Positions 7,900-20,431 of a stretch of 20,696 nt of DNA are shown here, in pieces (the first letter of the stretch is position 1; each line of letters starts with the position of its first letter). The position numbers were made by a program, and so were the translations under genes. Source of the stretch: a virus; the IMG/VR virus record IMGVR_UViG_3300025598_001756, positions 1 to 20,696 of that record, one strand, 5' to 3'. The notes under the pieces are model-generated. The model was not told the DNA's origin, made no database searches, and saw nothing but the letters and a program-made list of their open reading frames with translations.

Positions 7900-7907
7900 T
7901 ATAAATA
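7900..7907 (+). promoter_or_regulatory. T4-type late promoter TATAAATA
   Basis: A perfect match to the T4 late promoter core lies 23 nt before the GTG at 7931. With the core at about -13 to -6, the start falls near 7913, giving an 18-nt leader. The site lies just behind the stop of the preceding gene. Confidence 0.65.
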
Positions 7908-8599: not shown

Positions 8600-8607
8600 A
8601 ATAAATA
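8600..8607 (+). promoter_or_regulatory. Probable late promoter AATAAATA upstream of cspA
   Basis: AATAAATA fits the relaxed NATAAATA late core. The predicted start near 8613 would give an 18-nt leader that includes the AAAGGAA ribosome site of the cold-shock gene. Confidence 0.5.
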
Positions 8608-8631
8608 AAAGTATGTTTTTAAAGGAATAAA

Positions 8632-8835
8632 ATGACAACTGGAATCGTAAAATGGTTTAACGACGCAAAAGGATTTGGATTTATCACTCCAGATGATAAA
8701 GGAGCAGATTTATTTGCGCATTATACCCAAATTAAATCAGAAGGATTTAAAAGTTTGAAAGAAAATGCTCGTGTAAAGTTTGATGTGGTTAATGGCGCAA
8801 AAGGCCTACAAGCCAGCAACATAGAAGTATTGTAA
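8632..8835 (+). CDS. cspA: Cold-shock domain protein, CspA family
   Basis: A 67-residue single cold-shock domain. [18 protein letters not shown] carries the RNP1 motif KGFGF (residues 13-17). [10 protein letters not shown] is the RNP2 segment, with Leu/Ala where VFVHFS is usual. The C-terminus [16 protein letters not shown] is typical. Such proteins bind single-stranded RNA or DNA and act as RNA chaperones. Phage copies, known in pelagimyoviruses, may help phage mRNA translation. A clear AAAGGAA ribosome site lies 6 nt before the ATG. The gene ends directly before the tmRNA acceptor piece. Confidence 0.95.
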
Positions 8836-8839
8836 CAGA

Positions 8840-8908
8840 ATCTGCCAGCAATGGCAACTATAGTTGAAAGGCATTGCGGACGCGGTTTCGATACCGCCAG
8901 GTCCACCA
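8840..8908 (+). ncRNA. ssrA: tmRNA acceptor piece of a circularly permuted, two-piece ssrA
   Basis: The 3' tRNA-like end of tmRNA lies upstream of the coding piece. GGACGCGG followed by TTCGAT and ACCGC forms the T-arm, and CAGGTCC-A-CCA ends at 8908. CAGGTCC pairs over all 7 positions (one G-U) with GGGCCTG at 8951, the 5' end of the coding piece. CTATAGTT (8858-8865) pairs with AACTATAG (8984-8991), and TGCC (8843-8846) with GGCA further out, as nested P2-like helices. The T-loop reads as 6 nt if the T-A pair closes the stem, one short of normal. The exact 5' end is uncertain. A 42-nt spacer, which itself folds into an AAACATT/AATGTTT hairpin, separates the pieces. Confidence 0.85.
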
Positions 8909-8950
8909 AATTCCTCATCTGAAACATTTTATTACTAGAATGTTTTGGAT

Positions 8951-9190
8951 GGGCCTGAAATGGATTCGACGTGGTGAGAATAAAACTATAGGGATCGGCA
9001 AGGTAGAAGCCGTAGGATTAAGGCAACTTAATCAAAGACACACAAAAAGTAAATGCAAACGCATCGAAAGGCGAAGTAACTGTAAGCGGTAAGGGAATTC
9101 GTTTCTCTGCTCGTTCTACAGCAAAAGCCGAAGCATTCGCAGTTTAATCACTGGCGTTGATCAACTATGATTAGAAACAGAAAATAGTAG
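8951..9190 (+). ncRNA. ssrA: tmRNA coding piece (permuted ssrA) with tag reading frame
   Basis: The piece begins GGGCCTGAAATGGATTCGACG, the conserved 5' end of tmRNA. The region AAATGCAAACGC resembles the GTCGCAAACGAC resume site of E. coli, so the resume codon is probably GCA at 9055. Reading from there gives 30 codons, starting ANASKGEV and ending STAKAEAFAV, with TAA at 9145. The end recalls the EEFAVAA tag of Caulobacter but lacks the final Ala-Ala. A shorter tag AKAEAFAV from GCA at 9121 is an alternative. tmRNA rescues stalled ribosomes with SmpB; no smpB lies in this window. The 3' boundary is uncertain but precedes the terminator. Confidence 0.85.
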
Positions 9191-9216
9191 AAAAAGACTA
9201 CTTCGGTAGTCTTTTT
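9191..9216 (+). terminator. Rho-independent terminator of the tmRNA
   Basis: AAAAAGACTAC and its complement GTAGTCTTTTT pair perfectly around a TTCG tetraloop (9202-9205), followed by more Ts. It ends the CspA-tmRNA unit. Confidence 0.9.
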
Positions 9217-9218
9217 TC

Positions 9219-9247
9219 TTGACATTTAAATTAGTCAAGTGTATACT
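9219..9247 (+). promoter_or_regulatory. Sigma70-like promoter for the DUF2061 gene
   Basis: TTGACA (9219-9224), a 17-bp spacer and TATACT (9242-9247). The -35 box begins within the T-tract of the tmRNA terminator. A leader with AGGAAAG follows before the ATG at 9273. Confidence 0.8.
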
Positions 9248-10211: not shown

Positions 10212-10295
10212 GGAGTAGAAGCATCAATGGTGATGCAGTGGACTGTAAATCCGCCGTCTTTGACACGCTTGGTTCGATCCCAAGATGCTCCACCA
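10212..10295 (+). tRNA. tRNA-Tyr (GUA)
   Basis: Anticodon arm GTGGA-CTGTAAA-TCCGC gives anticodon GUA. The variable arm is long (about 13 nt), as expected for bacterial Tyr. The T-arm CTTGG-TTCGATC-CCAAG is canonical, and CCA is encoded. The acceptor has a G-U pair and a mismatch at position 7. Confidence 0.9.
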
Positions 10296-10296
10296 A

Positions 10297-10308
10297 TACT
10301 AAATACAG
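10297..10308 (+). promoter_or_regulatory. TACTAAATACAG motif, late-promoter-like
   Basis: This 12-mer occurs three times in the window (9533, 10297, 14205). Its ACTAAATA core resembles NATAAATA with one change. It lies 4 nt before the ATG of the 10313 gene, so the predicted start is within about 2 nt of that ATG. Confidence 0.5.
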
Positions 10309-10312
10309 TATC

Positions 10313-10807
10313 ATGCTAAAAAAATTACACGACATTGATGTTTTACCTATTTTAACTGAATACATCCATTTAGAAAAAAAGATCGAATGGGCTGTAATGG
10401 GTCACAAAGGTAAACAAGCAGGTATTCAGCATCTAGCAGGGGAAAATATTTGGTCTAGTGCAGTTGGTAAAGGCCGAGGAATCGACCTTACCTGTAACGA
10501 GTTAAATCCGCATATTAAAAATACAATATTTGAAAAATTAATAGTAGATTACAAACTTACTAGAACTAGACTAATGTGGGTCAACGAAATGAGTTGCTAC
10601 AGTATACACAAAGATTCAACCCCTAGAATTCATATACCTTTAATCACTAACCCCGAGTGTTATTTTGTATTCAAAGATAACACCCAGGCTACTATAGAAC
10701 ACATGCCAGCAGGAGCTGTTTATTGGACTGATACTAGAAAATTTCACACCTTTATAAACTGTTCAACGCAATCTAGATTGCATTTGATAGGAGTAGTAGA
10801 AGAATGA
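10313..10807 (+). CDS. Aspartyl/asparaginyl hydroxylase-like 2OG-Fe(II) oxygenase
   Basis: A 164-residue protein with the double-stranded beta-helix pattern of aspartyl/asparaginyl beta-hydroxylases. Fe ligands His99 and Asp101 lie in YSIHKDSTPRIHIPL and His145 in KFHTFINCS, with a 2-oxoglutarate-anchoring Arg155 in SRLHLIGV. MPAGAVYWTD is the usual connecting strand. The frame is open through the tRNA-Tyr region, but the ATG at 10313 just after the tRNA and the late-like motif is the sensible start. The substrate is unknown; phage members could hydroxylate protein or small-molecule targets. It overlaps the next oxygenase gene by 4 bp. Confidence 0.82.
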   Translation: MLKKLHDIDVLPILTEYIHLEKKIEWAVMGHKGKQAGIQHLAGENIWSSAVGKGRGIDLTCNELNPHIKNTIFEKLIVDYKLTRTRLMWVNEMSCYSIHKDSTPRIHIPLITNPECYFVFKDNTQATIEHMPAGAVYWTDTRKFHTFINCSTQSRLHLIGVVEE

Positions 10808-11259
10808 AGCCTTTGGTATTATTGAATTATCCGTTGGATTTAACCCGGTTATTGACAGAAGCTGATGAAATTAAAAAAACAGCAGAATCGTATGTTGATG
10901 GTAGATACAACAACGCACTAGACTATTGGAAAATAGCTAGAGACTACGGCGAATATGGTAAACAAATCTTAGAAGATTTTGGCTTAGGTGGCAAACCTAG
11001 ATATTATTGGTTGGCACCAAACAGTTACTTGCCTGAACATACTGATCACAATACCCAATGTTCGATTAATTTTGTACTAAGTAAAAATTTAGCTCCTGTT
11101 ACTGTCGAAAACGTTGATTATTTTTATACACAAGCTTTGCTAAATACTTCCGTTCGACACTCGGTTCGCAATGGCCCGGAAGAAAGAATATTGTTTAAAA
11201 TATCTATTTTTGATAAGACCTTTGAAGAAGTGGCTGAAATAATCAAATACAAGTTATGA
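10804..11259 (+). CDS. 2OG-Fe(II) oxygenase-like protein (second of the set)
   Basis: A 151-residue protein, translationally coupled to its neighbours on both sides (ATGA overlaps). LPEHTDHNTQCSINFVL supplies His79 and Asp81, and SVRHSVRNGPEERILFKISI supplies His119 with Arg122 or Arg128 for co-substrate binding. The HxD-to-His spacing is shorter than in the first enzyme, so it is a divergent paralogue and not a recent duplicate. The N-terminal helices (TRLLTEADEIKKTAESYV) probably pack on the beta-helix. The substrate is unknown. Confidence 0.7.
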   Translation: MKPLVLLNYPLDLTRLLTEADEIKKTAESYVDGRYNNALDYWKIARDYGEYGKQILEDFGLGGKPRYYWLAPNSYLPEHTDHNTQCSINFVLSKNLAPVTVENVDYFYTQALLNTSVRHSVRNGPEERILFKISIFDKTFEEVAEIIKYKL

Positions 11260-11927
11260 AACAAATTAACTTTAATTATAGTTCAAACTCATTATCTAAA
11301 GTTGATATCGACGAGTTCATTGATTTACACTTTGAATTAAACAATAATATACCTTTTAATAACCCTTACTACGAAAATACCATGACACGATGGAGAAGTA
11401 GTAAGTTTAAAAGTTTAGAAGACGTTAGAAAAAAATATCAAGATAGTAAAATATTAAAATATTTAGAACCGTCTATTACCCAAGCACAAAAACATGGTAT
11501 TTTGGGCTGTTATGATTTTAATACCATGATGATTGGTAATCACCCTAGACTCCCAAAGAAAGATGGTATAGTAAAACATTTTCATCGTGGATCAACACCA
11601 GGTATAGATTGTAATATCTACACAATAGTTTATCCATTACTAATTAATAATCCTGTAACCGAATATGTATGGATGCATTGGGTAGAACACGATCACAAAA
11701 CAGTTGATTTTGATAATCTTATTCGAACACCGGAAGATCATCAAGTGGTCAAAGATATGAGAGCTTTTGCCATTCAAGATCGCACTAGACCAGAAATCCA
11801 TATTCCGTTTCCTAGTGCCAATGAACAATTAACTTTTGAATTTAATGGTACACATTGGTTACATTCGGTAGAAAATTCAAAGGATAATATATATTTTGTC
11901 GTTGCGATTAGTGATACTAGAGAATAG
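11256..11927 (+). CDS. Unassigned protein, possibly a divergent DSBH oxygenase
   Basis: A 223-residue protein coupled to the preceding oxygenase. DGIVKHFHRGSTPGIDC contains His108 and His110, and FNGTHWLHSVENSKDNIYFVVAISD near the end (His203) looks like the last strands of a double-stranded beta-helix. However, the acidic Fe ligand of HxD is not evident (HFH instead), and the segment between is longer than in the neighbours. It may be a non-catalytic or differently metallated relative of the adjoining oxygenases. The assignment depends mostly on context. Confidence 0.5.
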   Translation: MKQINFNYSSNSLSKVDIDEFIDLHFELNNNIPFNNPYYENTMTRWRSSKFKSLEDVRKKYQDSKILKYLEPSITQAQKHGILGCYDFNTMMIGNHPRLPKKDGIVKHFHRGSTPGIDCNIYTIVYPLLINNPVTEYVWMHWVEHDHKTVDFDNLIRTPEDHQVVKDMRAFAIQDRTRPEIHIPFPSANEQLTFEFNGTHWLHSVENSKDNIYFVVAISDTRE

Positions 11928-11948
11928 TGTATACCTTACGCTTCAGTT

Positions 11949-12698
11949 CTATTTGATTTTAACTAATTTTATAAGATAAGCAGTGACATCAATCTGCCAC
12001 CACTTTTTACCAAATCTCCAGTCAGCAGGAAAAGCGTGATGATTATTGTGCCATCCCTCTCCCCAAACAAATATACCTGTTAACCAATGATTGGTACTGG
12101 TATCTCTGGTTTGATAATCTTGCCATCCTAAAAAATGACTCAGTGTATTAATGAAACTGCCGGCATGCCATAATATAAAACTTGGAAATAACCACAAATA
12201 TATCACCGCAAATGGGTCAATAGCGTAACAAAACAACCCGTAACCAGCATGTACTAACCAATAATATTTGTGCATATTGATATGAAAATTACTGCGTAAC
12301 AAATCAGGAACGTACTTTACACGCGGATGATGAAGCATACTAAAAAATTGAATTTTCCACCAAGGTAAATGATGTGGACTGTGCGGATCTCTGTCAGTAT
12401 CAGTGAATCTATGATGTTCTCTATGTACCGCACACCAAGCAATACTACTTCCGGTACCACCAATGGTACCTAAAAATGTTCCGAGATATTCCCACCATTT
12501 TGGTGCGTTGTAACTTTTATGACTAAGCAATCGGTGATAAATCCCGCTCATTCCAATAGCCCCGGTTAAAAAATATACAAAAAAAGCCCAAGCATAATGA
12601 GACATCGAAGCATACATTATCATTGGTATCAGTGATAGGTGTACTAAGATTTGAAATAACAACAACGAGTTATATTTTTTAAATAAATGGTTTAGCAT
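11949..12698 (-). CDS. Membrane fatty-acid desaturase (acyl-CoA/acyl-lipid delta-9 type)
   Basis: A 249-residue integral-membrane desaturase. All three histidine boxes are intact: HRLLSH (55-60), HREHH (92-96) and HNNHH (217-221), which together hold the di-iron centre. Hydrophobic stretches at about 15-30, 36-52, 72-88 and 150-180 fit four membrane helices. The length suits a bacterial DesC-like enzyme without a cytochrome fusion. It should introduce a double bond into host acyl chains and change membrane fluidity during infection. It is the only sizeable minus-strand gene, ends tail to tail with the 11256 gene, and has a late promoter whose core ends exactly 5 nt before the ATG, so its message should be leaderless. 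Confidence 0.92.
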   Translation of the reverse strand: MLNHLFKKYNSLLLFQILVHLSLIPMIMYASMSHYAWAFFVYFLTGAIGMSGIYHRLLSHKSYNAPKWWEYLGTFLGTIGGTGSSIAWCAVHREHHRFTDTDRDPHSPHHLPWWKIQFFSMLHHPRVKYVPDLLRSNFHINMHKYYWLVHAGYGLFCYAIDPFAVIYLWLFPSFILWHAGSFINTLSHFLGWQDYQTRDTSTNHWLTGIFVWGEGWHNNHHAFPADWRFGKKWWQIDVTAYLIKLVKIK

Positions 12699-12703
12699 AA
12701 GTA

Positions 12704-12711
12704 TATTTATA
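12704..12711 (-). promoter_or_regulatory. T4-type late promoter TATAAATA for the desaturase (leaderless)
   Basis: Read on the minus strand, TATAAATA is followed by TACTT and then the ATG at 12698. With the T4 late core at -13 to -6, the transcript would begin at the A of the ATG. The site lies in the 27-bp gap between the divergent desaturase and the 12726 gene. Confidence 0.75.
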
Positions 12712-12725
12712 CTGTGGGAGATGTT

Positions 12726-13505
12726 ATGGAACAGATAAAAAGATCTGAAAAAGAATTATTATCTAAGTATAGAAATGTTTTTTTAAACGAAGAAAACAAA
12801 TCTATCGAAGATTGGAAGAATTATGCTTATGTACCTTTAGATATTCCGAAATTTGACTGCCCGGAAATAGTCGAGTGGTTTTTTAATCGTTGTGCAGAAA
12901 CAAAAAAATTAAATATTTCGCATCATAATCCTTCTATTTATGATTTATTTTTTAATACAGTTGAAATTTACTATAACGAAAAAAGTAAGAATCGCACTAA
13001 AAAATACAGAACAGCCAATAATCTCACTGATGAATTCATAGAAAAATTCCCTGATTTTTACAATAAACTGTTGGAAAATTTTCCTTTTAAATCAGTAGGA
13101 TATTTAATGTTTTTAAACTGTACCGATGAGGTTAAAATGCATCGTGATCACGAAAATATTGTAGATGGGCCGACACAGTTTAGAATCATGCTTTATGATG
13201 AAAATCCAATATCTACTTTGGGTTTTGTAGATTCGTTGCCTGATACGGAAGTAGATCTTAGTAAAAAGTTTTTAACTGCGCAACTAGAAGATACTAATTC
13301 TTTGGCGTGGAACAATCTAAGAGTCAAACATGGTAGTTCTTATGATCCTAAATATAAAAAAATTATTTTAGGAATTATCGACTATGAATTAGATATGCCC
13401 AGGCTACATGATCTCATGAAAAGAAGCGTTGAAAAATATAAGCAACATGCCATGATCATCGACCGACCTACCAGTGACTATGTTAATATCAACAACGTGC
13501 GTTAA
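12726..13505 (+). CDS. 2OG-Fe(II) oxygenase-like protein (third clear member)
   Basis: A 259-residue protein. TDEVKMHRDHENIVDGPTQFRIML gives His139 and Asp141. LRVKHGSSYDPKYKKIILGIIDYEL gives His202 and Lys211/Lys212 where an Arg or Lys would bind 2-oxoglutarate. The first 120 residues are mostly helical and have no visible motif. The ATG at 12726 follows a good GGGAG ribosome site (12716-12720) and is preferred to the GTG at 12714. It is divergent to the desaturase with only 27 bp between them, so their control regions overlap. Confidence 0.72.
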   Translation: MEQIKRSEKELLSKYRNVFLNEENKSIEDWKNYAYVPLDIPKFDCPEIVEWFFNRCAETKKLNISHHNPSIYDLFFNTVEIYYNEKSKNRTKKYRTANNLTDEFIEKFPDFYNKLLENFPFKSVGYLMFLNCTDEVKMHRDHENIVDGPTQFRIMLYDENPISTLGFVDSLPDTEVDLSKKFLTAQLEDTNSLAWNNLRVKHGSSYDPKYKKIILGIIDYELDMPRLHDLMKRSVEKYKQHAMIIDRPTSDYVNINNVR

Positions 13506-13548
13506 TCAAAGAAATAAATGGCTAGCAGTCTTCCTGATATTATAAAAC

Positions 13549-14199
13549 ATGACATTCAGAACTTATCAATCATACCATCCTGACTTTATGATTAAACACG
13601 AAGAATATCCTTATGAAGATTCACGAAAATTATGCGAGTCTCTTACTCACTGGTGGGATCATGTTCAACGCAGAATTAAACATGCGAAAACAAAAAGCAA
13701 TTATGATTTAACCAGTGAAGAGACTAACAGTTTAAACTACAGCTTTAATGAAAAACTTAAAACCGGAAGCTTTAGTTTTTTAATTTATAAGAAAACAACA
13801 GTTGCCGGATTTCAAGGTCTGTTAATAATGGATGAAGGTCGAACTGCATTATGTCATCGCATGATGGGCAATCCTGAATTTCCTTTTGCGGATCATTTGG
13901 GCATGTGGACTGATATTTTCATGACCTGGCAAGTTAAATGTGCTTATGAAATGGGCTGTGAGCAATACAAATTAGGATGGAACTTACACAACTATTCTCG
14001 ATATAAGTCGCATAGAGATGCTACTATTAAAGATAGATTCAAACATAACGGCGTTAATTCTGGACTATTACAGAAATTTGATTACCTAGGAAAACAAACG
14101 TTATTTTACACTGAACAGTATGTAGCGGCGCTTGACTTAACTCAAGATTGGATAAGAGAATTAGTAGAGTCTCTCGAATACAAATTAATCGACGAATAG
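13549..14199 (+). CDS. Unassigned protein, possibly GNAT-like
   Basis: A 216-residue protein. The middle (GSFSFLIYKKTTVAGFQGLLIMDEGRTALCHRMM) has the strand-turn-strand look of an acetyltransferase core. DHLGMWTDIFMTWQVKCAYEMGCEQYKLGWNLHNYSRYKSH could be the following helix and motif B region. The CoA pyrophosphate-binding Q/RxxGxG/A is not evident, so this is only a suggestion. The N-terminus is rich in aromatic and His residues. ATTATAAAAC directly precedes the ATG, so it may be another message with a very short leader. It lies within the oxygenase block. Confidence 0.5.
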   Translation: MTFRTYQSYHPDFMIKHEEYPYEDSRKLCESLTHWWDHVQRRIKHAKTKSNYDLTSEETNSLNYSFNEKLKTGSFSFLIYKKTTVAGFQGLLIMDEGRTALCHRMMGNPEFPFADHLGMWTDIFMTWQVKCAYEMGCEQYKLGWNLHNYSRYKSHRDATIKDRFKHNGVNSGLLQKFDYLGKQTLFYTEQYVAALDLTQDWIRELVESLEYKLIDE

Positions 14200-14204
14200 T
14201 GGTT

Positions 14205-14216
14205 TACTAAATACAG
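14205..14216 (+). promoter_or_regulatory. TACTAAATACAG motif, late-promoter-like
   Basis: This is the third copy of the 12-mer. It ends 1 nt before the ATG at 14218 and is preceded only by the 5-nt gap after the 14199 stop. If its ACTAAATA core is used like NATAAATA, transcription would start at the ATG. Confidence 0.45.
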
Positions 14217-14217
14217 G

Positions 14218-14838
14218 ATGAAACTGTTATTTAAAATAAATTTACCACATCCGCCTCAATCTGTACTCGATGAGGTAATAGACATTGGAAACAACAGATA
14301 TGCCGATGCTGACTTAAGACAGCACATTGTAGGCTACGCTGGTGACACAGACTTTGGAAATGATCCTTTTGATCGCAGAAACAAGCGTAGAAGATTACTC
14401 GATGTTGATAAAGGCATTTATGCCAGAACCAAGCCTACTGATGAATTAAAGGAATTTATCTATTCGATTTTACCAGACTATGGCTTAACCGATGACAGAA
14501 TTGGTATTCAAACCACAATTAATCGTCATTTTCCTCATACAGATAAATTGTACGCAAGATTGATGTATCGTGTAAGTGGTGATGCTTGCGTCACCACTTG
14601 GTTCATCGAAGAAGGTCAAGAATTAATTAGAAAAAGTGGTATCGGATTCCTCGAGTATGATACTCCCACTTTAAAGCCCATCGAAAGCGGTGTACTCAAT
14701 AACGGTAATTGGTACTTGGTGATTTCAAATGTTATACACGGTGTCATGAATAACAAGGGTAAAAGAATTTCAATAACTGTTCCTATGGAAGAGTGGCAAG
14801 CCAATAAGCTTATCAGCGAGCATAACACAGAGGAATAA
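14218..14838 (+). CDS. 2OG-Fe(II) oxygenase-like protein (fourth clear member)
   Basis: A 206-residue protein. INRHFPHTDKLYARLMYRVSG provides His107 and Asp109. NWYLVISNVIHGVMNNKGKRISITVPM provides His174 and Arg183, in good spacing for Fe and 2-oxoglutarate binding. A basic stretch (DRRNKRRRLLDVDK, 52-65) in the N-terminal half could contact nucleic acid or membranes. It is followed 2 bp later by another oxygenase gene, so the two form a pair. The substrate is unknown. Confidence 0.75.
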   Translation: MKLLFKINLPHPPQSVLDEVIDIGNNRYADADLRQHIVGYAGDTDFGNDPFDRRNKRRRLLDVDKGIYARTKPTDELKEFIYSILPDYGLTDDRIGIQTTINRHFPHTDKLYARLMYRVSGDACVTTWFIEEGQELIRKSGIGFLEYDTPTLKPIESGVLNNGNWYLVISNVIHGVMNNKGKRISITVPMEEWQANKLISEHNTEE

Positions 14839-14840
14839 CT

Positions 14841-15572
14841 ATGTTAACACGTAAACAATTGCCATTGTATGGCAAGATACAAAAGACAGTAGATCTCGAA
14901 CGATTGATACAGTATTGCATCGATAAAGGCTATACTAACTACGATGCGTTTGTAGATGTTAAATACGGTGAAAACGAAAAGCACAGTGCTTTCTTAAAAA
15001 CACACGCTTTCAGTAAACAAAACTTTTTTACTGAAGATGAAGCTGTTGAGACTTTACAAGGTGAGAAGTATAAGCAACTGTATCTCACAGAAATTGACCC
15101 GTCTAAACTTGTTTCGTCGAATGAAGAAATCAACGCTACCAGCACAAGTACTTTTAGTAAAAATAAAAGAAGATTACCCACTTCCAGCAATTACTTGCCC
15201 GAAGCCGACGAACACAACTACGGAGTTCGAAACAATCATGTTAAAGATATCTTCGAAGAAATTATTGATATGTTCGAAAGTCCAGTTTGTCGTGTCAGAC
15301 TAGCAGTATTGATGCCAGGATTTTCAATTAAACCACATGTTGATTATGATCCTAGTTATATTGTTAGATATCATATTCCTATCATTACCAACAAAGCAGT
15401 AATATTTGGAGGTAAAAATAAAAATGAATCTACAGAATATACCATGCCAGCTGATGGAAGCATTTATTTTTTCAATAGCGGTGTGCTACATTGGGTTGGC
15501 AATCATGGCACAGAACCAAGATTGCATTTAATCATTGATACCAATGGTCAAGCAGATTTAGAATTAATTTAA
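14841..15572 (+). CDS. Aspartyl/asparaginyl hydroxylase-like 2OG-Fe(II) oxygenase (fifth clear member)
   Basis: The most canonical member of the set, 243 residues. PGFSIKPHVDYDPSYIVRYHIPIITN contains His166 and Asp168. MPADGSIYFFNSGVLHWVGNHGTEPRLHLIID contains His217 and Arg227, the classical aspartyl/asparaginyl beta-hydroxylase pattern. The first 145 residues form an extra N-terminal region not present in the short 10313 enzyme. A GAGGAATA stretch before the ATG can serve as ribosome site. Family members hydroxylate Asp or Asn, or small molecules in natural-product pathways; the target here is unknown. Confidence 0.85.
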   Translation: MLTRKQLPLYGKIQKTVDLERLIQYCIDKGYTNYDAFVDVKYGENEKHSAFLKTHAFSKQNFFTEDEAVETLQGEKYKQLYLTEIDPSKLVSSNEEINATSTSTFSKNKRRLPTSSNYLPEADEHNYGVRNNHVKDIFEEIIDMFESPVCRVRLAVLMPGFSIKPHVDYDPSYIVRYHIPIITNKAVIFGGKNKNESTEYTMPADGSIYFFNSGVLHWVGNHGTEPRLHLIIDTNGQADLELI

Positions 15573-15615
15573 AGTGTCAGTAAAAAAAATCACATAATGG
15601 GCTGTAAGGGTTGTT

Positions 15616-15687
15616 GGGGGATGAGCCAGGGCTCAGTTGAATTTTGCAAGTTTAGCTCGATCGGGGCGGCACCGATATCCTCCACCA
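15616..15687 (+). tRNA. tRNA-Ala (UGC) with non-canonical T-loop and short D-arm
   Basis: GGGGGAT pairs with ATCCTCC including the G3-U70 wobble that marks tRNA-Ala. The anticodon arm TGAAT-TTTGCAA-GTTTA gives UGC, and CCA is encoded. The D-region is only 15 nt (GAGC-CAGG-GCTC-AGT) without the usual U8-A9 linker. The T-arm is ATCGG-GGCGGCA-CCGAT: a perfect stem but G54-G55-C56-G57-G58 in the loop. At 72 nt it is short, and standard gene finders might score it low. Confidence 0.8.
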
Positions 15688-15692
15688 TTAAC

Positions 15693-15766
15693 ATCCGGTT
15701 AGCTCAATAGTAGAGCATTCGACTGATAATCGAAAGACAGAGGAGCGTTACCTCTACTGGATACCA
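15693..15766 (+). tRNA. tRNA-Ile (GAU) with non-canonical T-loop
   Basis: Acceptor ATCCGGT/ACTGGAT with A73 and encoded CCA. D-arm GCTC/GAGC. Anticodon arm TTCGA-CTGATAA-TCGAA gives GAU. T-arm AGAGG-AGCGTTA-CCTCT: the stem is perfect, but the loop has A54-G55 instead of TT while keeping C56. The D-loop (AATAGTA) lacks the GG pair. Confidence 0.88.
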
Positions 15767-15798
15767 AAACTTTAATTATCAATAACACAAAGGAAACT

Positions 15799-16269
15799 AT
15801 GAAATTTAACTTACCGCACATTAAAGAATATATCAGCGAGCAAAGTAACACAACAAAGATATACATTGGTGTAGATAGTGAAAGAGTCAAAATAAATGGT
15901 TTATGGTACGCAGATTATACCGCGGCTATTGTTGTTCATATTGATAGTAAACACGGATGTAAATTATTCGGGGAGGTAACTAGAGAACGTGATTTCGATA
16001 AGCCTAACAGACCCAACACACGGTTAATGACAGAAGTATACAAAGCCAGTGCTTTATACCTATCATTGGTCGATGTAGTAGGCGATAGAGAAATGTTTGT
16101 TCATTTAGACATCAACCCAAATGAATTTCATGCCAGCAGTAACGTAGTAGCACAGGCAATTGGTTATATTCGCGGTACGTGTAATGTGACCCCGTCCGTT
16201 AAACCCTACGCTTGGGCCGCAAGTACTGCCGCTGATAGGTTTAGAAGTTTAAAGATAGCAAATGAATAA
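15799..16269 (+). CDS. YkuK-like RNase H-fold protein (DUF458)
   Basis: A 156-residue protein matching the DUF458/YkuK pattern. KIYIGVDSERVK is the first strand with an acidic residue, and LFGEVTRERDF and LMTEVYKASALYLSLVD follow. FVHLDINPNEFHASSNVVAQAIGYIRG and VKPYAWAASTAADR close the domain. The family is predicted to have an RNase H-like fold, but its substrate is not established. An AAGGAAA ribosome site precedes the ATG. It sits between tRNA-Ile and tRNA-Leu, so the transcript probably carries both mRNA and tRNA; a role on RNA is plausible but unproven. Confidence 0.85.
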   Translation: MKFNLPHIKEYISEQSNTTKIYIGVDSERVKINGLWYADYTAAIVVHIDSKHGCKLFGEVTRERDFDKPNRPNTRLMTEVYKASALYLSLVDVVGDREMFVHLDINPNEFHASSNVVAQAIGYIRGTCNVTPSVKPYAWAASTAADRFRSLKIANE

Positions 16270-16291
16270 TGAGGGCGTGATAAAATAATTT

Positions 16292-16380
16292 AGGAGTATG
16301 GCGTAATTGGCAGCCGCGCTGGATTTAGGATCCAGTATCTGAAAGATGATGTGAGAGTTCAAATCTCTCTGCTCCCACCA
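16292..16380 (+). tRNA. tRNA-Leu (UAG)
   Basis: The anticodon arm CTGGA-TTTAGGA-TCCAG gives UAG. The long variable arm (ATCT-GAA-AGAT) is class II as expected, the T-arm GAGAG-TTCAAAT-CTCTC is canonical, and CCA is encoded. Base 1 is A opposite C72, a mismatch at the end of the acceptor stem. Confidence 0.9.
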
Positions 16381-16386
16381 AAATAA

Positions 16387-16415
16387 TTGACTTAATAGTC
16401 AACAACATATATAAT
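16387..16415 (+). promoter_or_regulatory. Sigma70-like promoter between tRNA-Leu and the 16439 gene
   Basis: TTGACT (16387-16392), a 17-bp spacer and TATAAT (16410-16415). The predicted start near 16422 leaves a short leader containing AAGGA before the ATG at 16439. Confidence 0.8.
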
Positions 16416-16438
16416 ACTAGCAACAAGGAAATAAAAGT

Positions 16439-16606
16439 ATGGCAAATAATCCACTAAAACACAAAACTGGCAAGACTCGTCTTGGTCCTTTGAATCTCAA
16501 GCAGTTGGAAGATATGTTGGCAAAAACATCAAAGGGTAAAGATAAGGCAAAAATCAACAACAGAATCAAAACAGTAAAATCTAGATTAGAAAAAGCTAAA
16601 GTTTAA
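16439..16606 (+). CDS. Very basic 55-residue protein, function unknown
   Basis: The frame begins MANNPLKHKTGKTRLGPL and continues with a Leu/Lys helix (LKQLEDMLAKTSKGKDKAKI) and a basic end (RIKTVKSRLEKAKV). About one third of the residues are Lys or Arg. It has its own sigma70-like promoter and an AAGGA ribosome site 9-13 nt before the ATG, and it is followed directly by tRNA-Thr. The composition suggests nucleic-acid or ribosome binding. No family is recognised. Confidence 0.75.
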   Translation: MANNPLKHKTGKTRLGPLNLKQLEDMLAKTSKGKDKAKINNRIKTVKSRLEKAKV

Positions 16607-16616
16607 AAAAGAATAT

Positions 16617-16692
16617 TCCCGGTTAGCTCATTTGGCAGAGCAGCCGCCTTGTAAGCGGCAGGTGGTCAGTTCGAATCCGACACCGGGAACCA
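16617..16692 (+). tRNA. tRNA-Thr (UGU)
   Basis: Acceptor TCCCGGT/ACCGGGA, D-arm GCTC/GAGC with GG in the loop, anticodon arm GCCGC-CTTGTAA-GCGGC giving UGU, canonical TTCGAAT T-loop, and CCA encoded. Confidence 0.95.
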
Positions 16693-16705
16693 AAATTTAA
16701 TATAT

Positions 16706-17275
16706 ATGGATCTTCAAAAAATATTCGAGTATTTAAAAAATTTATACTCATTCGATTTACATAAAGGGCCTTTCATTTATGGAAGTTCAACGGTTTATCA
16801 TCATTTAAGTTCTTTAGGCGAAAAACCTTCTTGGTTACCTAGAGAAATTGATATTTTGTGTAGAAATCAAACTCAATTTGATGAACTAGATGTTATTCTA
16901 ACTCCATTAGCCACTAATATTAGAATTTTTGATAGCCCTGAACATTTACGTGGCAATCAATATGCCAAAGACTTTGATATACCTAATTGTTATAAGATCC
17001 AAATCTTTATAGTCGATAAGGATCACGAACAAATATTAACTAACATAGACTATACTATTTTAAGATCCTGCACCGATTGTACTAATTGGTCTGTAGCACC
17101 GGGTACTATAGATGATATCAAAAACAAGTTGTTATTAGACAACAATGATCGTGTTCAATTTTTTATCAAACAAAAAGGCTACGAAACTGTAAAAAATAGA
17201 TATATAAAATATATAAGTCGAGGATTTGTAGATAGAGATAACTTAATTTTAAATAAAATAGAATCTTACAAGTGA
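16706..17275 (+). CDS. Nucleotidyltransferase-fold-like protein, unassigned
   Basis: A 189-residue protein. PFIYGSSTVYHHL (residues 22-34) followed by LPREIDILC (44-52) recalls the GSxxx...DxD pattern of the polymerase-beta-like nucleotidyltransferase fold. The first catalytic acid would be Glu47 or Asp49. IQIFIVDKDHE is a candidate third strand with an acid. The C-terminal half is helical with an aromatic, basic end (FIKQKGYETVKNRYIKYISRGF). The gene lies between tRNA-Thr and tRNA-Gly with only 13 nt before its ATG and no Shine-Dalgarno. A role in tRNA end processing is tempting but not shown. Confidence 0.5.
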   Translation: MDLQKIFEYLKNLYSFDLHKGPFIYGSSTVYHHLSSLGEKPSWLPREIDILCRNQTQFDELDVILTPLATNIRIFDSPEHLRGNQYAKDFDIPNCYKIQIFIVDKDHEQILTNIDYTILRSCTDCTNWSVAPGTIDDIKNKLLLDNNDRVQFFIKQKGYETVKNRYIKYISRGFVDRDNLILNKIESYK

Positions 17276-17301
17276 GAGTAGGCAAGCACTTTTTACAAAA
17301 A

Positions 17302-17377
17302 GCAGGTAAGGTGTTTATAGATACACAAAAGTCTTCCAAACTTTAGTAGACCGGGGCGGTACCGGCTACCTGCTCCA
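17302..17377 (+). tRNA. tRNA-Gly (UCC) with non-canonical T-loop
   Basis: GCAGGTA pairs perfectly with TACCTGC. The discriminator is U73, as expected for bacterial Gly, and CCA is encoded. D-arm GTGT-TTATAGAT-ACAC lacks the GG pair. Anticodon arm AAAGT-CTTCCAA-ACTTT gives UCC. The T-arm CCGG-GGCGGTA-CCGG has G54-G55-C56-G57-G58 like tRNA-Ala. The CCA overlaps a late promoter motif for the next gene. Confidence 0.85.
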
Positions 17378-17383
17378 TAAATA
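17376..17383 (+). promoter_or_regulatory. Late promoter CATAAATA overlapping the tRNA-Gly 3' end (leaderless)
   Basis: CATAAATA is followed by TTAAT and then the ATG at 17389, exactly 5 nt from the core. The predicted transcript starts at the A of the ATG. Confidence 0.7.
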
Positions 17384-17388
17384 TTAAT

Positions 17389-17565
17389 ATGAAACATAAA
17401 TTAAATTTAATCGAATCAGCAGAATCACCAGGGCCTAGTTATGTTGAACTTTCAGACGAAAATATCAAAGTCTTAGAAGAAATATTAAATGGACTTAATC
17501 AAATAAGTGAATTGGTTAATCAACAATATACGGAATTGAGATTAAGGAATGTAAGATATGAATAA
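17389..17565 (+). CDS. Small acidic protein, 58 residues
   Basis: The frame runs MKHKLNLIESAESPGPSYVE, then a helical part (LSDENIKVLEEILNGLNQIS, ELVNQQYTELRLRNVRYE). It begins at a CATAAATA late motif with 5-nt spacing and ends with an 8-bp overlap into the next gene, both of which support it. It is probably the first gene of a three-gene late operon. No family is recognised. Confidence 0.65.
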   Translation: MKHKLNLIESAESPGPSYVELSDENIKVLEEILNGLNQISELVNQQYTELRLRNVRYE

Positions 17566-17743
17566 GCTTAATGAATTAAATACTCATCTAGGAACTAAAC
17601 AATTAGTTGCTATCAATCAGGCTAAGAAATCAATTGCTAATATAATTAATCTTATGCCAAAAGAAGATATTATTTTAATGATGAATGAAATAGGAGATAA
17701 AATTCCCGATATTAAAAAATTATTATCTAAAAATAAAAAATGA
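17558..17743 (+). CDS. Small helical protein, 61 residues
   Basis: It overlaps the preceding gene by 8 bp and the next by 4 bp (ATGA). The sequence is helical throughout, with LVAINQAKKSIANIINLMP followed by IILMMNEIGDKIPDIKKLL and a basic end. Its AT-rich codon use matches its neighbours. Function unknown. Confidence 0.65.
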   Translation: MNKLNELNTHLGTKQLVAINQAKKSIANIINLMPKEDIILMMNEIGDKIPDIKKLLSKNKK

Positions 17744-17964
17744 GTTCTATATTAGAAGGTATAACAAAAGCACAAAGACAATTTCAAAGAATTAAAACTG
17801 AATTGTATATAACTTACATTTGGCAAAAAGCTAGATATCAATCAACTACAGGTGCTATACCAAAACTAAACATTAGTGTTGAAAACTTAAAACAATTACA
17901 AATCGAGTTAGCTAATCTTCGAAATCAATTATTAAAGTTAGGATATACCGAAGAACAATTATAG
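17740..17964 (+). CDS. Small helical protein, 74 residues
   Basis: Coupled to the previous gene by an ATGA overlap. The first half (ILEGITKAQRQFQRIKTELYITYIWQKAR) is an amphipathic basic helix. A loop (TTGAIPKLNIS) is followed by a Leu-rich coiled-coil-like helix (ENLKQLQIELANLRNQLLKLGY). This could be a structural or assembly chaperone component given the late promoter, but no family is recognised. Its stop codon abuts a structured RNA. Confidence 0.65.
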   Translation: MSSILEGITKAQRQFQRIKTELYITYIWQKARYQSTTGAIPKLNISVENLKQLQIELANLRNQLLKLGYTEEQL

Positions 17965-18044
17965 TCCGGCAAGTAGCTTAACAATGCTCAAACTGTATAG
18001 CTGGAATTTACCAGTGAAGTGGGAAGGAACGCCCATGTACGGAC
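17964..18044 (+). ncRNA. Candidate structured RNA of tRNA size, family unknown
   Basis: GTCCG (17964-17968) and CGGAC (18040-18044) close an 81-nt stretch. Inside, CTGG/CCAG and TGGG/CCCA hairpins can form. A rho-independent terminator follows within 6 nt. It has no CCA and no convincing anticodon arm, so it is not an ordinary tRNA. It may be a stable RNA or a structured 3' end of the upstream late operon. Confidence 0.4.
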
Positions 18045-18049
18045 ATCTC

Positions 18050-18072
18050 GAGGATGATAAGTCCTCATTTTT
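18050..18072 (+). terminator. Rho-independent terminator
   Basis: GAGGA (18050-18054) and TCCTC (18062-18066) pair around a TGATAAG loop, followed by ATTTTTATT. It ends the 17389-17964 late operon. Confidence 0.7.
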
Positions 18073-18084
18073 ATTGTTTAAGGC

Positions 18085-18558
18085 ATGGAAATAAAAAAAT
18101 CAAATTTACTAAAAGGGCGTGACAGCTATGATTCAACCAGTTCGGGCATGTTGATTCCTTTTCTCAACAGAAATGTTACGCCATATGCCACAGAAGCTGG
18201 CAGTATAAAATTTGAAATGGTTCCTGTCACCAAACAAAAAGACTTGATGATTAATCATGCCAGAATTTTTGCTCAGCAAGAATATGATCGCATCATGGAA
18301 TTGGTAGCTGTGTTGGAAAAGCAAGCCGAACAAATCAAACGCAGACTTGAAGTCACTGATGCTGTATATGCGGCAGTGTATGAATTTCAGCCGGTAATGG
18401 GACAAGAATATTGGCTGGTATGGAACCAGAGAAAGCGACACACTCTGCTAACGCAACACGGCCCTGATGATTGGAGCAGTGGAAAGCCCGCTGATTATGA
18501 GTATATCACAAAAATAAAATACATGGGTGATCATACTTGGTTGGAAATCGAAGATTAA
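18085..18558 (+). CDS. DUF2452-like protein
   Basis: A 157-residue protein. The N-terminal part has GMLIPFLNRNVTPYATEAGSIKFEMVPV. A helix follows (NHARIFAQQEYDRIMELVAVLEKQAEQIKRRLEVTDAVYAA), then FQPVMGQEYWLVWNQRKRHTLLTQHGPDDW. This order, especially the helix followed by KPVxGQxYYL-like text and a GPxxW segment, matches DUF2452, found in T4-like marine phages and some bacteria. No function is established. It starts 12 bp after the upstream terminator and is followed by the tRNA-cluster promoters. Confidence 0.75.
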   Translation: MEIKKSNLLKGRDSYDSTSSGMLIPFLNRNVTPYATEAGSIKFEMVPVTKQKDLMINHARIFAQQEYDRIMELVAVLEKQAEQIKRRLEVTDAVYAAVYEFQPVMGQEYWLVWNQRKRHTLLTQHGPDDWSSGKPADYEYITKIKYMGDHTWLEIED

Positions 18559-18616
18559 CTGTTGTTTTTACACAACACAATAACCCTAAACACATCATGG
18601 GTATCTGCCAACTAAA

Positions 18617-18749
18617 TTGACATTTAACTCCCGTGGTGCTACAATACATACATGTTAAGAAATTAACAAGTTTACTATCAAGTAAACGTTGTAGTATAAA
18701 AACAACAGTTGATAAAACAGTTGACATTTAAACAAAATGGTACTATAAT
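18617..18749 (+). promoter_or_regulatory. Tandem repeated promoters of the tRNA cluster
   Basis: Two sigma70-like promoters lie 104 bp apart. The first has TTGACA 18617-18622 and TACAAT 18640-18645; the second has TTGACA 18721-18726 and TATAAT 18744-18749. Both have 17-bp spacers. They sit in a direct repeat that shares TTGACATTTAA at its start and AATACATACATGTTAAG and AATTAACAA after the -10 box. A 14-bp inverted repeat (18557-18570 with 18697-18710) flanks the first. They point toward the structured RNAs and tRNAs from 18794 on. Confidence 0.8.
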
Positions 18750-18793
18750 ACATACATGTTAAGCAATTAACAATGTTCATTAAAAATTTAAAT

Positions 18794-19111
18794 TAGTATA
18801 GCAATCCTCTTAAATGAGGTGCTATATTAAAATGTATTAAAGGTTACCTACACCGTTAGGAACTTAAAGAAAGGAGCAAAGGGGCCGCCCTACGCAATCT
18901 TAAAGTTCATGAAACAAGCGCAAGCCGGAAAAGCGACGGAGTATGTAGGCAGTAATGACCGTACAGTCTTACGCGGAGACGTTCCCGTAAGTAGAGATAG
19001 ATGTACAATGGTTCCTTTAGTATAGTTTAATATAGTAGCGAGCGGCATCTTAAGTGATCGGAACGACCGTACAGCAGAGAGATGGTAGACTCTGCCCTAC
19101 TATAAAATTTT
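18794..19111 (+). ncRNA. Structured non-coding leader region, family unknown
   Basis: No convincing gene lies here. A 10-bp hairpin with an inner CCTC/GAGG stem (18794-18829) is followed by several stems: CTTACG/CGTAAG around 18970, a GC-GCAA-GC tetraloop near 18920, and an 8-bp closing stem TATAGTAG/CTACTATA (19031-19038 with 19097-19104). The last encloses GCAGAG/CTCTGC. GACCGTACAG occurs twice (18958, 19065). GGTTCCTTTAGTATAG at 19010 resembles the 5' end of the nearby Asp and Glu tRNAs but has no 3' partner. T4 makes stable RNAs of unknown function in its tRNA region, which is a fair comparison. Confidence 0.5.
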
Positions 19112-19186
19112 GGTCCCATAGTATAGTGGTTAATATAGGAGCTTGTCACGCTTCAGTCGGGAGTTCAATTCTCCCTGGGACCGCCA
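19112..19186 (+). tRNA. tRNA-Asp (GUC)
   Basis: Acceptor GGTCCCA/TGGGACC with G73 and encoded CCA, anticodon loop TTGTCAC giving GUC, and T-arm GGGAG-TTCAATT-CTCCC. All parts are close to canonical. Confidence 0.93.
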
Positions 19187-19189
19187 GAA

Positions 19190-19293
19190 TTTAACTAGAG
19201 AGCAAGCCTAGCATCTTGTAAAAGATACGCTAGCGGAATGGCAGAAATGAGAATACAGACGGAACCTTAAAGCCGAATCCGTCCCTAGTTAAA
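19190..19293 (+). ncRNA. Three-way-junction RNA candidate
   Basis: TTTAACTAG (19190-19198) and CTAGTTAAA (19285-19293) form a perfect 9-bp closing stem. Within it, CTAGC plus ATCTT pairs with AAGAT and GCTAG around a GTAA (GNRA) tetraloop (19208-19233). GACGGA pairs with TCCGTC (19258-19263 with 19278-19283). The text AATGGCAGAAATGAGAATACAGACGGA faintly recalls the D-arm side of a tRNA-Leu, and CCTTAAAG a UAA anticodon loop, but acceptor and T-arm are missing. It matches no RNA family I know. Confidence 0.5.
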
Positions 19294-19301
19294 ACTTTTA
19301 T

Positions 19302-19369
19302 GTCCTGGGAATCCACGCAAAGTTCGCAACTTTGGGCAGTGAGTAGGTGAAACTCCTACGAGGACGCCA
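19302..19369 (+). tRNA. tRNA-like RNA with minimal D-arm
   Basis: GTCCT pairs with AGGAC, followed by G73 and an encoded CCA. An anticodon-like arm CAAAG-TTCGCAA-CTTTG would give CGC (Ala), but the acceptor lacks the G3-U70 of tRNA-Ala. The T-arm stem GTAGG/CCTAC is perfect with a TGAAACT loop. Only about 11 nt lie between acceptor and anticodon stem, enough for at most a GG/CC mini-hairpin. It is a highly degenerate tRNA or a tRNA mimic. Confidence 0.5.
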
Positions 19370-19373
19370 ATTT

Positions 19374-19448
19374 GTTCCTATAGATTAGTGGCTAGATCAT
19401 CGCCCTTTCAAGGCGAAGAACGGGGGTCGGAACCCCGTAGGAACACCA
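19374..19448 (+). tRNA. tRNA-Glu (UUC)
   Basis: Acceptor GTTCCTA/TAGGAAC with A73 and encoded CCA. The D-arm keeps GG, the anticodon loop CTTTCAA gives UUC, and the T-arm CGGGG-GTCGGAA-CCCCG has G54 and G58 but keeps T55 and C56. Its ACACCA end is one strand of a 23-bp inverted repeat with the tRNA-His 5' end. Confidence 0.92.
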
Positions 19449-19528
19449 TATAGAAACACTTCTTCTGGAGCTGATGCCCAGACTAGTCTCTGATGATAAT
19501 CGTCGGAAGAAGTGTTTCTATATGGTGT
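19443..19528 (+). repeat. 23-bp perfect inverted repeat joining tRNA-Glu and tRNA-His
   Basis: Bases 19443-19465 are perfectly complementary to 19506-19528, with a 40-nt loop that can add wobble pairs. The arms reach into the tRNA-Glu ACACCA end and the tRNA-His GGTGT start. The stem would compete with the first acceptor pairs of tRNA-His and sequester the Glu CCA until it is cleaved. It is a likely double-strand RNase substrate for separating the two tRNAs. Confidence 0.85.
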
Positions 19529-19598
19529 CTATAGTGTAGCGGAAACACTAGGGATTGTGGTTCCCTCATCACCGGTTCGAACCCGGTTAGACACCCCA
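19524..19598 (+). tRNA. tRNA-His (GUG)
   Basis: G-1 is encoded and faces C73, the His identity pair. Acceptor GTGTCTA/TAGACAC, anticodon loop TTGTGGT giving GUG, canonical TTCGAAC T-loop, and CCA encoded. Confidence 0.93.
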
Positions 19599-19601
19599 AC
19601 A

Positions 19602-19766
19602 TTAAAGGTTATTTAACCAACGTAAAGCAGAATTTACATTGGTGAAATATTGCATTTCGAAATATTCAGTGTCGTAGACATCGCGCACCATGATACAACA
19701 TACTCCCTTATCATAAGATAAGTGAAAATGCAAACCATTCGGTGTTAAACTGTTGTATGTTTTCAC
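19602..19766 (-). CDS. Small minus-strand protein, 54 residues, between tRNA-His and tRNA-Arg
   Basis: Reading the minus strand from the GTG at 19766 gives 54 codons, with text such as NSLTPNGLHFHLSYDK, CCIMVRDVYDTEYFEMQYF and NSALRWLNNL. The composition is protein-like, with many aromatic residues. The start is supported by a CATAAATA late core that ends exactly 5 nt before the GTG, the same geometry as at three other genes. No Shine-Dalgarno is present, as expected for a leaderless message. It is antisense to the tRNA cluster. No family is recognised. Confidence 0.6.
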   Translation of the reverse strand: MKTYNSLTPNGLHFHLSYDKGVCCIMVRDVYDTEYFEMQYFTNVNSALRWLNNL

Positions 19767-19771
19767 ACTAA

Positions 19772-19779
19772 TATTTATG
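19772..19779 (-). promoter_or_regulatory. Late promoter CATAAATA for the minus-strand small gene (leaderless)
   Basis: Read on the minus strand, CATAAATA, then TTAGT, then GTG. The spacing of 5 nt places the start of transcription at the first base of the GTG. It lies 6 nt from the tRNA-Arg 5' end. Confidence 0.65.
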
Positions 19780-19785
19780 TAGTTT

Positions 19786-19860
19786 GCGTCTGTAGCTCAG
19801 TGGAAGAGTTCTGGTCTTCGAAACCAGCTGGCGGGAGTTCGAATCTCTCCAGACGCACCA
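19786..19860 (+). tRNA. tRNA-Arg (UCG)
   Basis: Acceptor GCGTCTG/CAGACGC, A73 and encoded CCA. Anticodon arm CTGGT-CTTCGAA-ACCAG gives UCG. Canonical T-loop TTCGAAT. Confidence 0.93.
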
Positions 19861-19873
19861 AGAAATTTTATCT

Positions 19874-19912
19874 CGGAGTATAGCACAGCCAGATAGTGCG
19901 CTCGGTTTGGGA
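19874..19912 (+). pseudogene. 5' half of an interrupted tRNA-Pro (UGG)
   Basis: CGGAGTA (acceptor), TA, D-arm GCAC/GTGC, G26, anticodon stem CTCGG and loop TTTGGGA form positions 1-38 of a tRNA-Pro. The sequence then departs from tRNA: no CCGAG follows. A matching 3' acceptor strand TACTCCG-A-CCA appears only at 20664-20674. The gene is therefore split by about 736 bp that holds an HNH gene and another tRNA-Pro. Confidence 0.75.
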
Positions 19913-19935
19913 AAATCTCGTTTTTGTATCGCTAT

Positions 19936-19943
19936 GATAAATA
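19936..19943 (+). promoter_or_regulatory. Late promoter GATAAATA for the HNH gene (leaderless)
   Basis: GATAAATA, then ATAGT, then the ATG at 19949: again exactly 5 nt from core to start codon. Confidence 0.65.
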
Positions 19944-19948
19944 ATAGT

Positions 19949-20431
19949 ATGAAAAACAGAATAACAAAACCAGGTTTGTTAGCAATGAATCGGAAGATAG
20001 GTTGCGTACATTGTGCTAAAGAGACTACAGTAGGAAACATAAAGAAGCATGAAACATCGTGTTTTTTAAATCCTAATAATGTAGTAGAGTGTTTAGTTTG
20101 TAGTAAGCCAATAAAAAACTATAAGGAATCAAAAGGTACTTGTAGTCGTAGTTGTGCTAACAAGCATTTTAGAAGTGGTGAAGGCAACGGTAATTGGAAG
20201 GGTGAAAACTATCAATCCATTTGTTTCCTTCATCATGAAAAGAAGTGTGTAGTATGCGGTGAGGATAAGATTGTAGCAGTTCATCATTATGACCATAATC
20301 ATGAGAATAATGATCCTAACAATTTAGTTCCGCTTTGTCCTACACATCATAGTTATGTACATAGTCGTTATGTTGTTGAGGTACAACCCGCAATAGACGA
20401 GTATGTTAAGAGATTTCTCCGGTTCGCCTAA
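19949..20431 (+). CDS. HNH homing-type endonuclease with zinc fingers
   Basis: A 160-residue protein. Cys pairs at 19/22, 48/51, 65/69, 100/103 and Cys130-His133 suggest several zinc-binding knuckles. VHHYDHNHENNDPNNLVPLCPTHHSYVHS (from residue 111) is the beta-beta-alpha-metal HNH motif. SGEGNGNWKGEN resembles the NUMOD-like GxxNPxW/GxGNxxWKG segment of phage homing enzymes. I chose the ATG at 19949 because of the late promoter 5 nt upstream; the frame is open back to 19907 inside the tRNA-Pro fragment. Its last five codons lie inside the second tRNA-Pro. It probably nicks or cuts a tRNA-Pro target and mobilises itself. Confidence 0.88.
   Translation: MKNRITKPGLLAMNRKIGCVHCAKETTVGNIKKHETSCFLNPNNVVECLVCSKPIKNYKESKGTCSRSCANKHFRSGEGNGNWKGENYQSICFLHHEKKCVVCGEDKIVAVHHYDHNHENNDPNNLVPLCPTHHSYVHSRYVVEVQPAIDEYVKRFLRFA

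Follow-up and report, generated by a model that had tools for sequence, protein, structure and literature searches.

Does the late promoter box of this phage lie so close to some start codons that the messages would carry no leader at all? The window analysed here spans an entire IMG/VR record (20,696 bp) and represents part of a large phage genome. A preliminary description had placed NATAAATA exactly 5 nt before the start codons of four genes devoid of a Shine-Dalgarno (SD) sequence, and had likened this arrangement to the late core of phage T4. All of this held on inspection: ATAAATA-N5-RTG is present at 12710-12696 (-), 17377-17391 (+), 19778-19764 (-) and 19937-19951 (+), the distance is 5 nt at all four sites, no 4-nt SD core occurs between -20 and -5 (4/4), and the T4 geometry is correct, the T4 late box being numbered from -13 and located about one helical turn upstream of the transcription start (PMC2988020). 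The motif matches the window five times, against 0.48 expected, and five or more matches were reached in 0/100 shuffles. The fifth match, at 8601-8615, is no gene start, its ATG opening a frame of 5 codons, so that an ATG at N5 proves nothing alone. Nor is 5 nt the only distance, as spacings 4 and 7 are also used in the window (at 14218 and 10313, respectively); with these two genes, missed in the preliminary description, six window genes have a short-spaced box.

The minus-strand box TATAAATA at 12704..12711, inside the 27-bp gap between two divergent genes, has spacing 5 to the ATG of a fatty-acid desaturase gene (11949..12698, -; PF00487, E = 8e-18) that is predicted to be leaderless; a distant desaturase (28% identity) of the related contig G003 also has spacing 5, as does the annotated desaturase of the cultured phage Mosig. 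The same spacing separates the box at 19937..19943 (+) from a predicted leaderless HNH endonuclease gene (19949..20431, +; phrog_1271, E = 8e-14), which has an in-frame TTG 14 codons upstream. At spacing 4, the box at 14208..14213 (+) is followed by a 206-aa gene (14218..14838, +), likewise predicted to be leaderless, whose ATG is the first start in its frame and lacks an SD. The weakest of the six is a 54-codon GTG frame (19602..19766, -), a doubtful gene whose box (19772..19778, -; spacing 5) lies between divergent tRNA genes and whose GTG is the only one among the spacing-5 starts. Because no homologue was found in the fetched relatives, this gene is considered putative, as is, for the same reason, the predicted leaderless 58-aa gene at 17389..17565 (+). 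The box of the latter (17377..17383, +; spacing 5) immediately follows a tRNA-like CCA end, and that of an Asp/Arg hydroxylase-like gene without SD (10313..10807, +; PF05118, E = 3e-5), for which an ultra-short leader is predicted, lies a few nt after another (10300..10305, +; spacing 7). The near-leaderless ends of these two messages could conceivably be products of tRNA 3' processing, with no promoter involved. We consider this unlikely: both genes also have the box at a standard spacing, and processing is inapplicable to the divergent desaturase and to many genes without an upstream tRNA.

The RNaseH/flap endonuclease of the window shares 52% identity with its counterpart in Pseudomonas phage PA5oct, ~48% with the Xanthomonas XaC1 and Serratia BF proteins, and 75-80% with the proteins of nearly all of the best 80 environmental contigs. 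The contigs come from lakes, and the phage group with the two promoter modes described below is one of freshwater jumbo phages related to PA5oct. The window desaturase, used as a query against viral contigs, gave no match. Five relatives from the best 80 contigs were read at length (G001, 317 kb; G002, 183 kb; G003, 80 kb; G004, 62 kb; G005, 43 kb), with G004 excluded from pooled counts as it duplicates G002 sites. In an unbiased scan of all hexamers at distances 0-30 before ATG (~127,000 pairs), TAAATA at distance 5 ranked second in the pooled set (52 seen versus 9.4 expected), behind the SD pair AAAGGA at distance 7, and TAAATA-N5-ATG was the top pair in G002 and in G003, which bears out the genome-wide enrichment of the N5 spacing that had been proposed as a check. 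The same pair was unremarkable in PA5oct and T4. The base preceding TAAATA is A or C.

At the level of genes, defined as open frames of 40 codons or more in 644 kb from the five related contigs, the distances from TAAATA to the gene start fall into two modes, with 77 starts at 4-8 nt, 7 at 9-16 nt and 88 at 17-30 nt. An SD core is present in 2/77, 1/7 and 50/88 of these, respectively (p = 1e-15 for the contrast by spacing class). The nearly empty gap at 9-16 nt is as two mRNA classes predict: with transcription starting a few nt past the box, a message would have either no leader or one with room for an SD. The mutual exclusion of short spacing and SD is likewise as expected if one promoter serves a leaderless and a leadered class. 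Among ATG and GTG starts, ATG accounts for 74/77 short-spaced versus 76/88 leadered genes; the former fraction fits the AUG preference of leaderless mRNAs in E. coli, which are translated mostly by 70S ribosomes (PMC9031893). Letter order mattered: 38 spacing-5 starts lie behind TAAATA, whereas the 14 alternative permutations of its letters have 0 to 7 each. An unfiltered hexamer scan of the overlapping loci was uninformative, being dominated by near-copies; reduced to distinct genes, these further loci yielded 18/2/24 starts at 4-8/9-16/17-30 nt. Distance histograms revealed no short mode in T4 (3/12/38 in the same three classes), PA5oct (4/12/44), RaK2 (3/9/29), XaC1 (5/2/22) or S-PM2 (0/4/22), and the Campylobacter phage CP220 gave 5/17/45. 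A chance origin of the pattern is ruled out by the shuffles, the permutations of the box letters and the comparison phages.

The strongest evidence for two modes comes from the comparison of orthologues. The portal gene (phrog_213; 80 loci) and another virion gene (phrog_11591; 79 loci) provided 149 starts with readable upstream DNA. TAAATA lies at 4-7 nt in 109/149, with an SD in 0/109; the remaining 40 have TAAATA at 17-27 nt (n = 30) or lack it (n = 10), and 39/40 have an SD. Intermediate spacings are absent among the 149 starts. Although the start picker gave preference to candidates having either signal (box or SD), and so made either easier to find, this does not account for the two never co-occurring at short spacing. 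The portal tree implies at least 8 mode changes, 6 of which are forced by well-supported branches, while the protein changes little, so that this gene offers a natural test of the benefit that leaderless translation brings to a virus. In G001/G002 pairs, whose proteins are 65-87% identical, spacing is mostly conserved (4/4, 5/5 or 7/7). Switching also touches the window: gene 7931 has its box TATAAATA at 7900..7907 (+), with the spacing of 23 typical of the leadered class, and in its family the spacing is 5 in the G001 orthologue and 18-23 elsewhere. Overall, the bimodal distances and the exclusion of SDs across orthologues support the leaderless late class originally proposed, with the amendment that spacing 7 implies a leader of 3 nt.

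The short-spaced class includes the portal, baseplate wedge and other virion proteins, metabolic genes (desaturase, radical SAM enzymes, nucleotidyltransferases) and endonucleases (the window HNH gene and NUMOD3/HNH genes of G002). Two further short-spaced frames in the loci have N-termini that, judged by eye, are GIY-YIG-like. A module of 11-17 bp combining promoter and start codon would, we suggest, suit mobile genes.

The bases following the box bear on where transcription would begin. At the fifth position behind TAAATA, A is found in 43/73 leadered versus 4/38 spacing-5 genes (p = 6e-7), and, in the orthologue sets, in 80/80 distinct spacing-7 upstreams versus 0/10 at spacing 5 or 6. The simplest rule would place the start point at the first A from base five after the box. 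Under this rule, messages with spacings 4 and 5 would be strictly leaderless, and spacing 7, the commonest one in some late genes, would leave a three-base leader, ACY-AUG. In the spacing-7 upstreams of loci L210-L289 and L291-L369, ACY before the AUG is nearly invariant (A 100%, C 93-97%), a constancy that suggests a defined 5'-ACY-AUG mRNA end.

The ATG behind the box might alternatively be an initiator motif of the promoter, its overlap with the start codon being incidental, in the manner of the TATG of phiKZ late promoters, which are served by the nvRNAP and in which the G is the start point (PMC5312081). A T does precede the ATG at 66% of spacing-5 sites, and the leadered box at 8601..8607 (+) is followed by N5-ATG, yet the cold-shock gene that it serves starts further on, at 8632 (spacing 24), behind an AAAGGA SD; in the relatives this gene has a plain leader with SD. 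Leadered promoters, however, show no ATG enrichment at this position, their fifth to eighth bases being variable, the same start codon is common to orthologues, and the SD is missing exactly where the spacing is short, all of which renders an initiator motif very improbable. The likeness to phiKZ is thus that the start-point motif contains the letters ATG; the difference is that here a -10 box would set the start. A core of the phiKZ type was also discarded on other grounds: the box itself is the core, and at spacing 4 the base before the ATG is mostly C, not T.

A gp55-type late sigma factor is encoded by G001 and G002 (phrog_12791, E = 6e-64 and 3e-60, respectively). It was found with PHROG late-sigma models, the general sigma-70 model PF04542 having found no late sigma in these two contigs; the window, a fragment without a sigma gene of its own, is too short to tell. 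The T4 family model of gp45 (phrog_223) matched T4 only, and not RaK2, XaC1, PA5oct or G001-G003, so that the late factors anticipated in the preliminary description were recovered for gp55 but not, in the jumbo relatives, for gp45. A divergent upstream neighbour is found for 32% of short-spaced genes versus 15.6% of genes without a box (p = 0.0014), and several divergent short-spaced genes, the window desaturase (27 bp) among them, span gaps of 15-37 bp. This bears on the possibility that TAAATA is a translation signal inside operons (an A/T-rich standby, an S1 site or coupling through a TAA stop) and not a promoter. Most short-spaced genes do have a same-strand upstream neighbour, but the TAA is the stop of the upstream gene in only 3/38 spacing-5 cases, divergent neighbours are twofold enriched, SD genes have the identical box 17-30 nt upstream of their starts, and relatives encode gp55. 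We rate a translation signal as scarcely more credible than an initiator motif.

Our preferred reading, to which we assign a probability of roughly 0.85, is that one T4-type late box serves both a leaderless or near-leaderless and an SD-leadered class of late genes in this phage group. (A/C)TAAATA would be the -10 element of a T4-type late promoter, read by the host RNA polymerase together with the phage gp55-type sigma. In the leadered class, transcription would start at least 12 nt before the gene and the SD would recruit the ribosome. In the short class, where the box lies 4-8 nt before the start codon and the SD is missing, the mRNA of genes with spacing 4 or 5 would start at the A of the AUG and that of spacing-7 genes about three bases earlier, as 5'-ACY-AUG, and translation would be initiated by the leaderless route. 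A search for an IF3 homologue, as a candidate ribosome-modifying factor, found none in the five relatives.

By box and sigma, and as far as tested, the system belongs with that of T4, whose late promoters (TATAAATA, gp55/gp33/gp45) have the same -10 box and lack a -35 element, a gp55-family sigma being present in the relatives as well. In T4, however, the box is mostly found 17-30 nt before SD genes, whereas in the present group about half of the boxes lie at 4-8 nt. The related jumbo phage CBB is reported to have ATAAATA before structural genes and a gp55, with gp33 and gp45 not found (PMC5259590); the late motif of CBB and GAP32 is the same, but a leaderless class was not reported for either (PMC5259590). 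The TA-led leaderless genes of Deinococcus and Actinobacteria (PMC3160421, PMC12340547) share with the short class a -10 box ~10-12 bp before the start and the lack of an SD, but theirs are bacterial housekeeping promoters, whereas here the promoter is a phage late one and orthologues switch to the SD mode. The open-access literature searched yielded no report of T4-like or jumbo phages with leaderless late genes. Leaderless phage mRNAs are known chiefly from isolated examples, lambda cI among them. If our reading is true, a large and common phage group makes core virion proteins (portal, baseplate) without SD-dependent initiation, and gene callers relying on an SD or a leader may put the starts of such genes in the wrong place. 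The short mode appears to be a second, widespread route to late viral proteins.

The arrangement recurs in a cultured phage, Mosig, a member of the Kyanoviridae infecting Pelagibacter (SAR11), in which gp55, gp45 and a late promoter accessory protein are annotated. Its genome contains 11 TAAATA-N5-ATG, seven of which (24964-, 60328-, 60990+, 92381-, 92996-, 94129+ and 106670-) coincide precisely with independently annotated start codons, against 0.17 expected (P ~8e-10). The seven genes encode the tail tube protein, a DNA end protector, the fatty-acid desaturase, an Asp/Arg hydroxylase, a nitroreductase, a UDP-diacylglucosamine hydrolase and a small product. In the distance histogram, 6 starts lie at spacing 5, 2 at 8, none at 4, 6 or 7, and 10 at 9-16, so that the 9-16 nt gap is less clean than that of the jumbo group. 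Since Mosig grows on Pelagibacter HTCC1062, the question of leaderless messages is open to testing in culture. It is tempting, though for now tentative, to extend the dual late programme to both of these distant gp55-type groups, the PA5oct-related freshwater jumbo phages and the SAR11 phage; a module of 11-17 bp might then unite promoter and translation start, late genes might change mode, leaderless or SD, over evolutionary time, and late in infection the cell might favour leaderless initiation.

Several other features of these genomes deserve mention. Many oxygenase-type genes are found in Mosig as well as in the window, where a run of 2-oxoglutarate/Asp-hydroxylase-type oxygenase-like genes occupies 10313-15572, and the pair of desaturase and hydroxylase is common to both. 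Two spacing-5 frames of PA5oct (144985+ and 180252-), the former without an upstream in-frame start, may represent isolated cases of leaderless genes in a phage that overall shows no short mode. Four copies of ATAAATATAC-N-TATG occur within 600 bp, inside a single open frame, at G002:C1:42659-43243 (-), in L109. The 5-codon frame MFLKE at the box-N5-ATG site before the cold-shock gene (8613-8630) overlaps the SD, with its stop 1 nt before the ATG of that gene, and could be a leaderless leader peptide or due to chance. tRNA-like 3' ends with CCA are seen in the window at 10215-10294, 15600-15690 and 17279-17376, all uncalled by ARAGORN and Rfam, and the first of these stretches resembles a tRNA-Tyr (anticodon GTA). 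A permuted (two-piece) tmRNA gene was called by ARAGORN in the window (8817-9238), at L106:14202-14640 and at L125:9452-9776, the window copy being also matched by Rfam RF04321. The tag of the G005 tmRNA, ANDEQFALAA, resembles betaproteobacterial tags, which we take to be a possible hint at the host.
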